From: Acidobacteriota bacterium
GTDB lineage: Bacteria; Acidobacteriota; Terriglobia; Bryobacterales; Bryobacteraceae
Direction: 5' to 3'
NCBI GenBank assembly: GCA_025353165.1
Contig: JANXRE010000136.1
Span: 62,001-126,000, forward strand
DNA: 64,000 bases
Under the pieces are notes generated by a model that ran no database searches, was not told the origin of the DNA, and saw only the letters and a program-made list of their open reading frames with translations. This document shows, piece after piece, positions 54,810 through 59,006 of this stretch. Position numbers and translations under genes: made by a program. The stretch's first letter is position 1. Every line of letters begins with the position of its first letter.

Positions 54810-55280
54810 TTACTCTCGCTGGTGGCGTGCGATGGCGGCGCGCACCTCAGCCTCGGTCTCGCGCTTGCGCTCGGACTCCCGCTTGTCGTGCAGTTTCTTG
54901 CCTTTACCGACCGCCAATTCGCATTTCACGAGGCCGTCTTTCAAGTAGATCTTCGTCGGGATGACGGTCAGCCCTTTCTCCTGTGTTTTCTTCGCCAGCT
55001 TGTCGATTTCGGCGCGGTGCAGCAGCAGCTTGCGGCGGCGCACCGGCTCGTGATTCTGCCGGTTGCCGTGCGAATACTGGCTGAAATGGGCGTTCACCAG
55101 CCACGCCTCGTTGTTCAACACCTCGGCGTAGGCTTCCTTCAGCTGTATCTTTGCCTCCCGGGCGGCCTTCACCTCGGTGCCGGTCAACACGATGCCCGCC
55201 TCGACCCGGTCGGAGAGGTGGTAATTGTGCCCCGCCTGCCGGTTGTCGCTGAGGATCTTGACCTTGATGTCCGTCGGCAT
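54810..55280 (-). CDS. smpB: SsrA-binding protein
   Basis: Partner of tmRNA in trans-translation; 156 residues. OB-barrel landmarks [47 protein letters not shown] and [13 protein letters not shown], then the basic, disordered C-terminal tail ([21 protein letters not shown]) that enters the ribosomal mRNA channel. Its RNA partner gene is also in the window (13423-13773). Same strand as pepA downstream. Confidence 0.98.
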
Positions 55281-55399: not shown

Positions 55400-57739
55400 A
55401 TGCGCAGCAATCATTTACGTACTTTCCTGGCGTCTCTCCTGACCCTCTTTCTCATTGCTCCGCCCATCCAGGCGAAGGACAAGAAAGCGGAGAAGTCTTA
55501 CAAGGCCGGCCTGGAGGCTGAGGCTCGGAAAAGCTGGGACGAGGCGCTGGAACTGTACGAGAGAGCCGCCGCGACCGATCCCGTGGACGCCCGCTTCATG
55601 ATGGGAGTCCAGCGCAGCCGCTTCCAGGCGGGGGCGGTACACGTCGACGGGGGCAGGAAACTCCGCAAGGAGGGACAGCTCGATGCCGCGCTGGCTGAGT
55701 TTCAAAACGCCATCGCTAAGGACCCCTCCTCCGCGATCGCGTTGCAGGAGTGGAAGCGCACGGCGGAGATGCTGGAGCGGGAAAAGAAGACCGGCAAGGT
55801 GGACGATCCGGACCGCGGGCTGACACCCGCCGAGAAGTCGCAGAAAGAAGGGCAGCAGCGTCTGGATTCGATGCTTCCGCCGCCCGAGCTGAAGCCCATC
55901 ACCCGGGTGATCTCCAACCTGAAGATGAACAATCAGCCGCCAAAGGTGTTGTTCGACACGGTAGGCAAGCTGGCGGGGATCAACGTCGTGTTCGACCCGG
56001 CGTACCAAAGCCAGGGCAAGATGTTCAACATCGACCTCAATAATTCGTCTCTGGAGCAGGCGCTCGATTACCTGGGTGTGCTCACCAAGACGTTCTGGAA
56101 GCCGATCTCGGGGAATACCATCTTTGTGACGGAAGACAACGTCACGAAACGGCGGGATTACGAAGATAACGTCGTCAAGGTGTTTTATATCAAGAACGCG
56201 ACCAGCGTTCAGGAATTCCAGGAAATCGCGACCGCGGTCCGCAGCCTGGTCGAAATCCGCCGGGTGTTTACCTACAACGCGCAGAAGGCCGTTGTCATGC
56301 GCGGCACGGTGGACCAGATCGCGCTGGCTGAGAAGGTGATCAACGATCTGGACAAGCCCAAGGGCGAGGTGGTGGTGGAAATCATTGTCATGGAAGCGAA
56401 CAGTTCCCGAACGAAGGACCTGGCCGCGGCGATCATGTCCGGCGGGTCTCCGGGACTCAACCTGCCGCTCCAGTTTACGCCGCGGAATCCGGTCCTGTCC
56501 GGCACCCCGCCACCGGCAACCACCGGGGGAGGCACTACGACACCGGCCGCTACCACGAGTACGGCGGTTTCCCTGCAACAGCTGGGGCATGTTTCCACCA
56601 ACGACTTCTCCACCACGCTGCCGGGCGCTCTGTTGAAACTTCTTGTATCCGACACGCGGTCGAAAGTGTTGCAGCACCCGTCGGTGCGCGCGTCCGACGG
56701 GCAAAAAGTCACGCTGAGGATCGGCGATAAGATCCCTTACGCGACCGGCAGCTTCCAGCCCGGCTTCGGCGGGGTCGGCGCGGGCATCAGCCCGCTGGTG
56801 AGCACGCAGTTCAGCTTCGCCGAGGTGGGAGTCAACGTGGACATCACGCCCCAGATCCATGGAACCGACGAAGTGACCTTGAAGATGGCGGTCGAGGTTT
56901 CGCAGGTCCGATCCAACGTGGAGATCGGCGGTGTCAGCCAGCCGATTATCGGGCAGCGGAAGACCGAGACGGAACTCCGGATGCGCGAGGGGGAAGTGAA
57001 CATACTAGGCGGGCTGTCGCAGAATCAGTACACAAAGAGCTTATCGGGAATTCCCGGACTCGTGGATGTGCCGGTGCTCGGCGCGCTGATGGGGAGCCAG
57101 CATACCAGCCGGGAAATTGGGGAACTGCTAATCGCGGTGATTCCGCACATCGTGCGCACCCCCGGTTACACGGCGGAGAACCTGAAGGGCGTGTTCGCGG
57201 GGACCGATCAGGTGCCGCACGTCAGCTATGCGCCAAAACCCGAGACCGACATCGTCCCGCCGCCGGCGGAGAAGGTCGTGCCGGCTAATCCGGCGCCGGC
57301 GGCCGCTCCCGCGGCGCAGACGCTGCCCCGGCTCTCATTCATTCCGCCCGCCACCCAAAGCGGTGTCGGGAATAAGATCGCGCTCACGCTCCAGGTCGAT
57401 AGCGTCACCGATCTCTCGTCGCTGGCGCCGATCCGGATCAAGTTCGATCCGAGAGTGCTTCGCCTGGACGACATCGTTCCGGGGAGCTTCCTGGCCAGCG
57501 ACGGCCAGCAGGCGACGGTGGCCAAGGACATACGCAACGATACCGGAGAAGCAACCCTCAGTGTCTCCCGGGTCGCCGGCACGCAGGGCGTCAACGGGTC
57601 TGGACCGCTGGCGACCTTTTCCTTCTCGGCAATCTCGAAAGGCAACGGGGCAGTGATGCTGACGGAATTCGGATTGAAGAACTCGCAGAATAGTCCGATC
57701 ACCATCGCGCCGCCCCAGGTCGCCGTCACTATTCAGTAA
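55400..57739 (+). CDS. Secretin with C-terminal cohesin domain (type II secretion/pilus-like)
   Basis: 779 residues. Signal peptide (MRSNHLRTFLASLLTLFLIA, PPIQAK); TPR region about 30-115; an STN/secretin N-domain about 170-300 (LFDTVGKLAGINVVFDPAYQ); secretin domain about 330-605 with DVDITPQIH-like NVDITPQIHGTDEVTLKMAVE and VPVLGALMGSQHTSREIGELLIAVIPHIV. A Pro/Ala linker joins a final about 130-residue cohesin-like beta domain (IALTLQVDSVTDLSSLAPIR, VRLDD...SFLASD, GSGPLATFSFSAIS). Start ATG 55400 gives the signal peptide. Two pseudopilin genes follow at 2 bp and by overlap. Confidence 0.9.
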   Translation: MRSNHLRTFLASLLTLFLIAPPIQAKDKKAEKSYKAGLEAEARKSWDEALELYERAAATDPVDARFMMGVQRSRFQAGAVHVDGGRKLRKEGQLDAALAEFQNAIAKDPSSAIALQEWKRTAEMLEREKKTGKVDDPDRGLTPAEKSQKEGQQRLDSMLPPPELKPITRVISNLKMNNQPPKVLFDTVGKLAGINVVFDPAYQSQGKMFNIDLNNSSLEQALDYLGVLTKTFWKPISGNTIFVTEDNVTKRRDYEDNVVKVFYIKNATSVQEFQEIATAVRSLVEIRRVFTYNAQKAVVMRGTVDQIALAEKVINDLDKPKGEVVVEIIVMEANSSRTKDLAAAIMSGGSPGLNLPLQFTPRNPVLSGTPPPATTGGGTTTPAATTSTAVSLQQLGHVSTNDFSTTLPGALLKLLVSDTRSKVLQHPSVRASDGQKVTLRIGDKIPYATGSFQPGFGGVGAGISPLVSTQFSFAEVGVNVDITPQIHGTDEVTLKMAVEVSQVRSNVEIGGVSQPIIGQRKTETELRMREGEVNILGGLSQNQYTKSLSGIPGLVDVPVLGALMGSQHTSREIGELLIAVIPHIVRTPGYTAENLKGVFAGTDQVPHVSYAPKPETDIVPPPAEKVVPANPAPAAAPAAQTLPRLSFIPPATQSGVGNKIALTLQVDSVTDLSSLAPIRIKFDPRVLRLDDIVPGSFLASDGQQATVAKDIRNDTGEATLSVSRVAGTQGVNGSGPLATFSFSAISKGNGAVMLTEFGLKNSQNSPITIAPPQVAVTIQ

Positions 57740-57741
57740 TT

Positions 57742-58206
57742 ATGAAAAGGCGATCGGAACGCGGATTCACCCTGGTTGAAATGGTCGTGGCGTTCACGAT
57801 CCTCGCGCTGCTGTGCACGATGGCGGTCCCGCTGGCCCGCTACAAAGTGAAGCGCGACAAGGAGCGCGACCTGCGCTGGGCGCTGCACGAGGTGCGAAAC
57901 GCGATCGATAAGTACAAGGACGATGCCGACGCGGGGAAACTCGCGCCGGGCAAGATCGAAAGTTACAACTACCCCGAGAGCCTGGAGCAACTGGTCGAAG
58001 GCGTGAAGGCCGCGGGGAAGGTCGACGTGAAGCTGAAATACTTGCGCCGCGTTCCCAAGGATCCCATGACCAACTCCACGGACTGGGGTAAACGGAGCAT
58101 GCAGGACGATCCGAAATCGACGAGTTATGGCGGGCAAAATGTCTTCGACGTTTTTTCGAAGAGCACCAACACAGGAAGCGATGGCACGCCCTACACGGAG
58201 TGGTAA
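57742..58206 (+). CDS. GspG-like pseudopilin 1
   Basis: 154 residues. Type IV pilin leader MKRRSERGFTLVEMVVAFTI (cleavage after Gly, Phe first, Glu5) and a hydrophobic N-helix. The C-terminus GSDGTPYTEW resembles the calcium loop end of GspG. Two bases after the secretin stop. Expected to polymerise in the inner membrane as a piston of a secretion system. Confidence 0.92.
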   Translation: MKRRSERGFTLVEMVVAFTILALLCTMAVPLARYKVKRDKERDLRWALHEVRNAIDKYKDDADAGKLAPGKIESYNYPESLEQLVEGVKAAGKVDVKLKYLRRVPKDPMTNSTDWGKRSMQDDPKSTSYGGQNVFDVFSKSTNTGSDGTPYTEW

Positions 58207-58585
58207 TCGCGGATTCACGCTGATCGAGCTGATGATCGTCATGGCGATCATGGGGATCATCATTTCGATGGCGGTCCCGATCTATCAGAAGTCGATCATC
58301 CGCTCGAAGGAGAGCGTGCTCAAGCAGAACCTGTTCACGCTGCGCCAAGTGATCGACGAGTACACCTACGACAAGCAGAAAGCACCGCAATCGCTGCAGG
58401 ATATCGTCCAGCAGGGCTATCTGCGGGGGATCCCGGTGGATCCGATGACCGGAACGGACAGTTCGTGGCGGATCATCATGGAAGACGCGATGAACTCCAC
58501 CAGCCAGAACGAGCCGGGAATATTCGACGTGCGCAGCGGGTCCGAGTCCAAGAGCCTGGAAGGCACTCCGTACTCCGACTGGTAG
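58181..58585 (+). CDS. GspG-like pseudopilin 2
   Basis: 134 residues from ATG 58181, overlapping the first pseudopilin by 26 bp. Leader RGFTLIELMIVMAIMGIIIS with Glu5; C-terminus GTPYSDW parallels its neighbour. Upstream in-frame codons from 58127 precede the leader only and are rejected. Two related pseudopilins with one secretin form a minimal cluster; ATPase and platform genes are not in the window. Confidence 0.93.
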   Translation: MARPTRSGNRGFTLIELMIVMAIMGIIISMAVPIYQKSIIRSKESVLKQNLFTLRQVIDEYTYDKQKAPQSLQDIVQQGYLRGIPVDPMTGTDSSWRIIMEDAMNSTSQNEPGIFDVRSGSESKSLEGTPYSDW

Positions 58586-58724: not shown

Positions 58725-59006
58725 GTGCCGGAACTCAGCCGATTTTTCGGCATCGTAATTAGACTGTTCTCGGAACCCGGTTCGCCTCACCACGGGCCTC
58801 ATTTCCATGCCTATTATCAGGACCAAGTGGCAGTCGTCGGGATCGACCCAGTGGATATGCTCGCCGGCGGGCTCCCTCAAAGGCAGCGGCGTCTCGTCGA
58901 AGTTCTCCGGTTTCTCCGGTTGACAGGTCGCGTTTGTTGTCGGCCTCGTCCAACGTGGGATCGCGTATTTACACCAAGGCGCCGATCCTGTAGATCCAGG
59001 CGGTGA
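58725..59006 (+). pseudogene. DUF4160 protein, truncated
   Basis: GTG 58725 encodes PELSRFFGIVIRLFSEPGSP, then HHGPHFHAYYQDQVAVVGID, the DUF4160 core with the PxxHFHxxY motif. From about residue 55 the sequence turns into a low-complexity basic stretch unlike the family C-terminus (LVLEWxxLHxxEL), so a frameshift or recombination has occurred. DUF4160 genes are normally paired with DUF2442 in a TA-like unit; no DUF2442 is seen. Confidence 0.65.

Follow-up and report, generated by a model that had tools for sequence, protein, structure and literature searches.

The window analysed here is a stretch of 64,000 nucleotides from the genome of a soil bacterium of the class Terriglobia, phylum Acidobacteriota (Bryobacteraceae; assembly GCA_025353165.1, contig JANXRE010000136.1, positions 62,001 to 126,000). 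It encodes a secretin that ends in a cohesin domain, and two pilin-like genes follow (Table 1). We hold it probable, at roughly 0.65, that this cluster encodes the outer-membrane half of a machine whose genes are split, a member of the type IV filament superfamily that resembles the type II secretion system (T2SS) and carries a collar of cohesins. The last step of this reading, taken alone, in which the cohesin is a dockerin-independent module for protein binding or for bracing and assembly, falls a little short of even odds. The domains, the fold, the conservation, the split of the operon and the lack of a dockerin match in the own genome were computed directly.

A genuine cohesin at the end of the secretin

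By profile and by predicted fold, the C-terminal domain is a genuine cohesin. Pfam Cohesin (PF00963) matched residues 652-749 with an E-value of 1.7e-6 (28.7 bits, above the cut-off of 24.1). A model of residues 639-779, built from three sequences, reached a pLDDT of 85.2 and a pTM of 0.80; in a Foldseek search with this model the first 40 of 40 rows were cohesins (best 2.3e-11), and other folds began at rank 41. Alignment of the model with the cohesin 1ohz in VIA-align gave a Z of 16.5 and an rmsd of 2.2, with 132 residues aligned. When a profile of 32 related domains was searched against the PDB, 13 distinct sequences were found at E<=0.01, and each belongs to an entry for a cohesin or a scaffoldin (two are labelled 'Endoglucanase', and both of these entries are a scaffoldin cohesin in complex). 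Phmmer with the single C-terminal domain returned just two weak PDB matches (E 0.75 and 0.92), both to scaffoldins, because a single sequence is too distant for phmmer. A chance match or another beta fold was ruled out by the Foldseek rows, the Z to 1ohz and the domain-profile search.

The remainder of the protein is a secretin. Its pore domain matched Pfam Secretin (PF00263) at 2.4e-34 (118.8 bits, cut-off 27.5), which places it in the secretin superfamily, and Secretin_N was matched at 1.8e-6. N0 was assigned only from position, conservation and the order of strands and helices in a low-confidence model. Secretin, Secretin_N, TPR_2 and Cohesin were all matched (Pfam scan, E<=0.01) in 32/32 proteins, namely the window protein, L019, L020 and the 29 top whole-protein matches, all 29 from the window's class. 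Conservation was 0.66 for the pore, 0.61 for the cohesin, 0.60 for both the tetratricopeptide repeat (TPR) region and the S-domain-like stretch, and 0.43 for the linker. The cohesin is thus about as conserved as the TPR region and nearly as much as the pore, unlike the linker, and is therefore under constraint.

The initial annotation, made from the sequence alone, had placed a cohesin behind the pore domain of a secretin and two pseudopilins beside it. The Pfam match, the predicted model, Foldseek and the PDB profile search bear out the cohesin; the case named there as a refutation, a last domain scoring better as another beta fold, did not occur; the open reading frame (ORF) at 55400-57739 on the plus strand holds; and both small proteins carry the prepilin N_methyl motif.

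The second half of the operon on contig C60

The operon is split in the window's class and joined elsewhere in the phylum. A search for GspE and GspF homologs, which the initial annotation had proposed, found T2SSE genes of the own genome on three contigs, C118, C60 and C58, each of which also carries T2SSF. The statement that the cluster lacks ATPase and platform genes thus stands for the neighbourhood within the window and fails for the genome, which has GspE and GspF on C60. The gene order on C60 is LolA-like, gspF, gspE (with an MshEN domain), PilM-like, PilN-like, PilO/GspM-like, GspC/PilP-like and a Pro-rich gene with a pilin-like start. Several of these scored weakly: the PilM-like protein 16 bits against 133 for TIGR01175, the PilN-like protein 19.0 (cut-off 22.8) and the PilO/GspM-like protein 19.5 (cut-off 22). 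The GspC-like protein matched no Pfam family above cut-off and nothing useful in the PDB, and GspC and GspL are seen in the machine only as positional and weak likeness. Counting the window plus C60, ATPase, platform, secretin and pilin-like genes are all present.

We searched 396 Acidobacteriota genomes, 47 of them from the window's class, the own genome included. Outside the class, tblastn with the C60 proteins found gspE and the secretin-cohesin gene in one operon in 23 of 25 loci; the other two (L094 and L115) run off their contigs. These 25 loci were picked, not drawn, 8 from good whole-protein matches and 17 from a cohesin in an ORF of 706-1020 residues; all held the secretin, and they tell nothing of genomes without a cohesin. 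Inside the class, gspE was present in the stretch around the secretin in none of the 12 loci read. In 11 of these 12 (the exception is L085), smpB and both pilin-like genes stood beside the secretin, and the adjoining smpB marks the conserved site of the split-off half. A C60-type gspE was found in all 47 class genomes searched, with 72-84% identity in the other 46. The secretin and gspE halves are 0.9-2.6 Mb apart in five single-contig class genomes; in two others they are much closer, at about 15 kb in G084 and 32 kb in G171.

Because the operons are joined in relatives, we infer that the window half and the C60 half act as one machine. An orphan three-gene cluster was ruled out by the C60 genes, the gspE in 47/47 genomes and the joined operons. 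The earlier assignment of the secretin to a type II-like machine is supported, and with GspE, GspF and the PilM/N/O-like genes on C60 the machine is not incomplete. Genome G084 also has a second secretin-cohesin gene (L085:9532-11769), away from smpB and the pilin-like genes.

Spread of the fusion and of dockerins

The fusion is usual among relatives, and the usual partner of cohesins seems not to be used. The per-genome figures for the phylum (whole protein, Pfam cohesin, dockerin, GspE and cohesin profile) are counted among the matches listed. A whole-protein match was found in 391/396 genomes, a number to which other secretins can contribute; Pfam cohesin matched in 227 (209 over cut-off), the secretin-cohesin profile in 267 (not all inside secretins) and the dockerin in 148. 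All 47 class genomes have a cohesin, in each case within the secretin ORF. The placement within the secretin rests on Pfam matches on one protein in 30 genomes, on strand, place and equal open-frame length in 16, and on tblastn in G321; whole-protein and cohesin matches were placed together in 42 of the 47, and the other five were settled otherwise. Dockerins occur in just four of the 47.

The cohesin and dockerin search suggested by the initial annotation had a divided outcome in the own genome (98.4% complete, 200 contigs): a single cohesin match, on the secretin, with Pfam and equally with the secretin-cohesin profile, and no match to dockerin PF00404. A cellulosome or cellulosome-like tether was rejected, since the genome has zero dockerin-bearing enzymes by PF00404, a single cohesin and no multi-cohesin scaffoldin, and dockerins are rare in the class. 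In four other genomes, large cohesin ORFs were seen (G157, G299, G105 and G291; up to 3583 residues in G299) with 7-11 matches per genome. All but G105 have dockerins as well, and the large proteins may be scaffoldin-like.

Beyond the phylum, where the initial annotation had suggested a survey, the fusion also occurs in Burkholderiales. The secretins of Janthinobacterium lividum and Paraburkholderia largidicola matched Pfam cohesin at 8.8e-10 and 5.4e-11, and in both, pilin-like genes, gspF and gspE accompany the gene. The window protein is matched by 804 plasmid records, in most cases through its secretin part; in one of them, from J. lividum, the match extends over at least 80%. This plasmid (NZ_CP139977.1) encodes a secretin (WP_070257939.1) with the same TPR, N0/N1, secretin and cohesin parts, and behind its gene stand three pilin-like genes, gspF and gspE; it differs from the window by its single operon, a lipobox seen by eye and an identity of 24.1%. 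The record's name, 'cohesin domain-containing protein', shows that databases can see the architecture. Very large genes lie beside the Burkholderiales operons (L119:21101-26028 with FG-GAP/RHS, and L120:1-3993 with GH2-like, Ig and F5/8C parts), and their products are possible cargo.

A putative lipid site before the TPR region

In 25/25 out-of-class secretins a Cys after Ala, Gly or Ser stands right before the TPR region as a lipobox motif, and three Burkholderiales secretins have it too by eye (the script missed L119 and L121). The window protein has no Cys at its signal end and so does not qualify as a liposecretin. Among 34 class rows, a lipobox at that place was found only in L037 (G376, family f3); the Cys of L039 lies further inside the signal peptide and was not counted. 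In the secretin tree, from which L085 was left out, the class is one group (100/100), and f3 is sister to 11 rows without the lipobox (99/96). In the f3 locus (L089), smpB adjoins the secretin gene, and the 13-kb contig contains no gspE. The lipobox of f3, its smpB, the lack of gspE and its place in the tree therefore suggest an operon split older than the loss of the lipid site; in the window's lineage the lipobox seems to have disappeared after that split.

Excerpts of PMC3542185 describe HxcQ of Pseudomonas aeruginosa as a secretin that is itself a lipoprotein, self-targeted and in need of no pilotin, and excerpts of PMC10499894 describe the TPR lipoproteins PilF and TadD as separate pilotins. 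The out-of-class relatives share with HxcQ the lipobox on the secretin, and differ by the TPR behind the lipid site and the cohesin at the other end; the window protein differs also by having no lipobox. With PilF and TadD they share a TPR that serves a secretin, here fused to its N-terminus. By this analogy the lipobox before the TPR looks like a built-in pilotin, and the N-terminal TPR may be a fused one; that it binds its own C-terminus is a guess.

A LolA-like gene (6.1e-20) lies on C60 at L015:7130-7834, just upstream of gspF, and no LolA match was found in the loci searched by tblastn. LolA is a lipoprotein carrier; the secretins of relatives look like lipoproteins, and the C60 half has this gene beside gspF.

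Relation to T2SS and type IV pili

None of the canonical T2SS equivalog cut-offs (GspD, GspE, GspF) was reached. The secretin scored 141 bits against GspD (TIGR02517, cut-off 351) and the C60 GspF 327 (cut-off 424), while the C60 GspE scored 536 as PilB (cut-off 676) and 531 as GspE (cut-off 630). Three PF00437 matches, the family within which PilT falls, occur in the own genome, on C118, C60 and C58, and are read as GspE, GspE-like and TadA; the retraction ATPase PilT was not among them. C118 carries a canonical-type T2SS operon (L016) with gspE, gspF, several pilin-like genes and GspK-, GspL- and GspD-like genes. Its GspE (642 bits) is over the cut-off of 630 and its secretin reached 341 of 351 as GspD, and on these two points a type IV pilus locus was rejected for C118. 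The C118 system shares gspE, gspF, pilin-like genes and a secretin with the machine described here and differs by having no cohesin match. C58 is a Tad-type locus.

In a tree of 42 ATPases, the own C60 sequence, 22 from joined operons and three from Burkholderiales make up one side of a branch with 92/96 support, just under the program's mark of 95. Another branch (98/89) holds E. coli GspE and HofB, the own C118 and class paralogues, including those of PilB type (L124 with 758 bits and L125 with 729, cut-off 676). The tree was rooted at its midpoint with few references, and the E. coli rows are long branches; L115 (no ATPase found) and L116 (partial) were left out. The rows of known GspE type (own C118 and E. 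coli) do not group together, and the Burkholderiales ATPases do not fall cleanly outside those of Acidobacteriota (64/55). With these few references, the ATPases of the machine appear to form a branch of their own.

Whether the machine is a pilus, with the cohesin secretin as its portal, is a separate question from the role of the cohesin, and we consider a pilus unlikely. It would fit the near-equal PilB and GspE scores of the C60 ATPase, the second pilin-like protein, which is slightly nearer pilins than GspG, and the canonical-type T2SS that the genome already has on C118. C60 also has separate genes for PilM-like and PilN-like proteins, a feature of pili. A pilus is at odds with the three PF00437 ATPases, which leave no PilT, and with ATPases that do not group with PilB of the type IVa pilus.

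A second secretin of the own genome (C189, L017:7273-8841; 522 residues) has a weak TPR match and no cohesin; inspection by eye of the surrounding 18 kb showed no gene of a pilus or a secretion system.

Pilin-like genes and neighbours

The best NCBIfam match of pilin-like protein 1 was GspG (TIGR01710), with 39.4 bits, below the cut-off of 88.85. For the second pilin-like gene, the place of the prepilin motif makes 58184, not 58127, the most likely start; with this start the two genes overlap by 23 bases. Its product scored 46.1 bits against Myxococcus PilA (NF041775, cut-off 400) and 42.8 against GspG (TIGR01710), again below both cut-offs. Upstream of the secretin gene and divergent from it are smpB and also an M17 aminopeptidase gene, and a small DUF4160 gene (2.7e-12) lies behind the pilin-like genes at 58725-59006.

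Table 1. Features of the secretin-cohesin cluster and its divergent neighbour, in window coordinates.
Feature	Position	Strand	Description
Secretin-cohesin gene	55400..57739	+	779 aa; putative subunit of the outer-membrane pore in a split T2SS-like machine
Signal peptide	55400..55474	+	By eye; A-x-A-like end, no Cys
N-terminal TPR region	55499..55741	+	Residues 34-114; Pfam TPR_11 and TPR_14 over cut-off
N0 and N1 periplasmic domains	55913..56362	+	Residues about 172-321; N1 from Secretin_N at 259-321
Secretin pore domain	56642..57157	+	Residues 415-586; Pfam Secretin, PDB type II secretins
Conserved S-domain-like stretch	57170..57235	+	Residues 591-612; named by position only
Pro/Ala-rich variable linker	57236..57343	+	Residues 613-648
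Cohesin domain	57344..57736	+	Residues 649-779
Pilin-like gene 1	57742..58206	+	154 aa, pseudopilin; N_methyl prepilin motif 1.7e-8
Pilin-like gene 2	58184..58585	+	133 aa; N_methyl 4.4e-10
smpB	54810..55280	-	Divergent neighbour, not part of the machine; Pfam SmpB 1.3e-54

Discussion

The secretin described here has the N domains, the pore and the tail behind the pore that are found in GspD (PulD, ExeD, EpsD), and its best PDB matches are type II secretins; GspD lacks a counterpart of its N-terminal TPR and C-terminal cohesin. The cohesin has the fold of cellulosomal and non-cellulosomal cohesins (2xdh of Archaeoglobus fulgidus ranked second in Foldseek), and differs from them in standing on a secretin, in a single copy, in a genome without a dockerin match. 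Searches of open-access papers on the secretin-cohesin fusion and on the T2SS in Acidobacteria, covering titles and the starts of abstracts for part of the results, found none that describes the fusion. In the excerpts seen, GspD and cohesin are mentioned apart (PMC2386152), T2SS genes in acidobacterial cells are only listed (PMC8787282), and other phyla are treated (PMC10066038, PMC8542988). PMC6668835 reports many 'generic' systems, and its main text, figures aside, contains neither 'Acidobacter' nor 'cohesin'.

According to excerpts of PMC6532946, solved type II secretins are periplasmic except for the beta-lip and a short helix, which lie in the outer membrane, and their C-terminal S-domain is where pilotins bind. 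By analogy the C-terminus of this secretin should be periplasmic, and a cohesin behind the pore should therefore face the periplasm. In the machine that we propose, the secretin would form the outer-membrane ring and the two pilin-like proteins a short periplasmic filament (endopilus), which the GspE ATPase, the GspF platform and the PilM/N/O-like proteins from C60 would drive. About 15 cohesins on flexible linkers would form a periplasmic collar at the inner face of the outer membrane, at the place where other secretins bind pilotins, and would brace or aid assembly with a partner other than a dockerin.

For the role of the cohesin we favour bracing or assembly, then cargo capture, then anchoring. 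Cohesins are protein-binding modules, and the flexible linker would suit a periplasmic dock that catches folded exoproteins at the channel mouth before the endopilus pushes them out. The very large proteins beside two Burkholderiales operons (GH2-like/Ig/F5/8C in P. largidicola, FG-GAP/RHS in J. lividum) are in line with such a dock; however, only these two neighbourhoods were annotated and the export of these proteins by the machine is a guess. We consider cargo capture improbable. Somewhat less probable again is an anchor of the ring to peptidoglycan or the outer membrane in place of a pilotin or GspA/B. The cohesin does stand where other secretins bind pilotins (excerpts of PMC6532946), and the window's lineage is without the N-terminal lipid site found in relatives, but the cohesin is kept in lineages with and without that site and is therefore unlike a replacement. 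The initial annotation had the cohesin hold dockerin-bearing cargo or surface proteins at the pore exit. Although the fold is that of dockerin-binding cohesins and dockerins occur in over a third of the phylum genomes (148/396), the own genome has no PF00404 match, 43 of the 47 class genomes have none while the fusion is in all 47, and secretin C-termini appear periplasmic (PMC6532946, in excerpt); such a tether is therefore very unlikely.

Several results weigh against a split T2SS-like machine with a bracing collar. The C60 GspE and GspF pass Pfam yet no NCBIfam equivalog cut-off, the likeness of the C60 proteins to PilM and GspC is weak or positional only, and for the second pilin-like protein a pilin profile gives a slightly higher score than GspG, and pilins are its best PDB matches. 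A 608-residue structure model of the secretin was poor (pLDDT 53) and does not give the position of the cohesin, and no partner of the cohesin was found. The secretin-cohesin profile was unmatched in 129/396 phylum genomes, and a related secretin of Cupriavidus CH34 (734 residues, with a Pro-rich end) seems by eye to have no cohesin; the domain can therefore be absent or diverge.

More speculatively, and with the odds rather against it, the machine may belong to a separate, so far undescribed type IV filament lineage of Acidobacteriota and some Burkholderiales that exports proteins through a self-piloting pore. In that lineage a lipidated TPR would replace the pilotin and the cohesin, as a 15-fold periplasmic collar, would grip a partner other than a dockerin; within the class of the window, the operon would have been split and the lipid anchor lost later, with the cohesin left as the main remaining accessory domain.

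A Legionella T2SS spread over five loci was missed since the tool used needed the genes together (excerpts of PMC4793230). The split found here accounts for the incomplete look of such machines in single windows, and tools based on adjacency may miss them. Given the likely order in which the fusion, the operon split and the loss of the lipid site took place, the way in which secretins find the outer membrane can be tested by comparing living relatives. Across much of a major soil phylum, a secretion pore has durably retained a cohesin, apparently in the absence of the partner known from textbooks.

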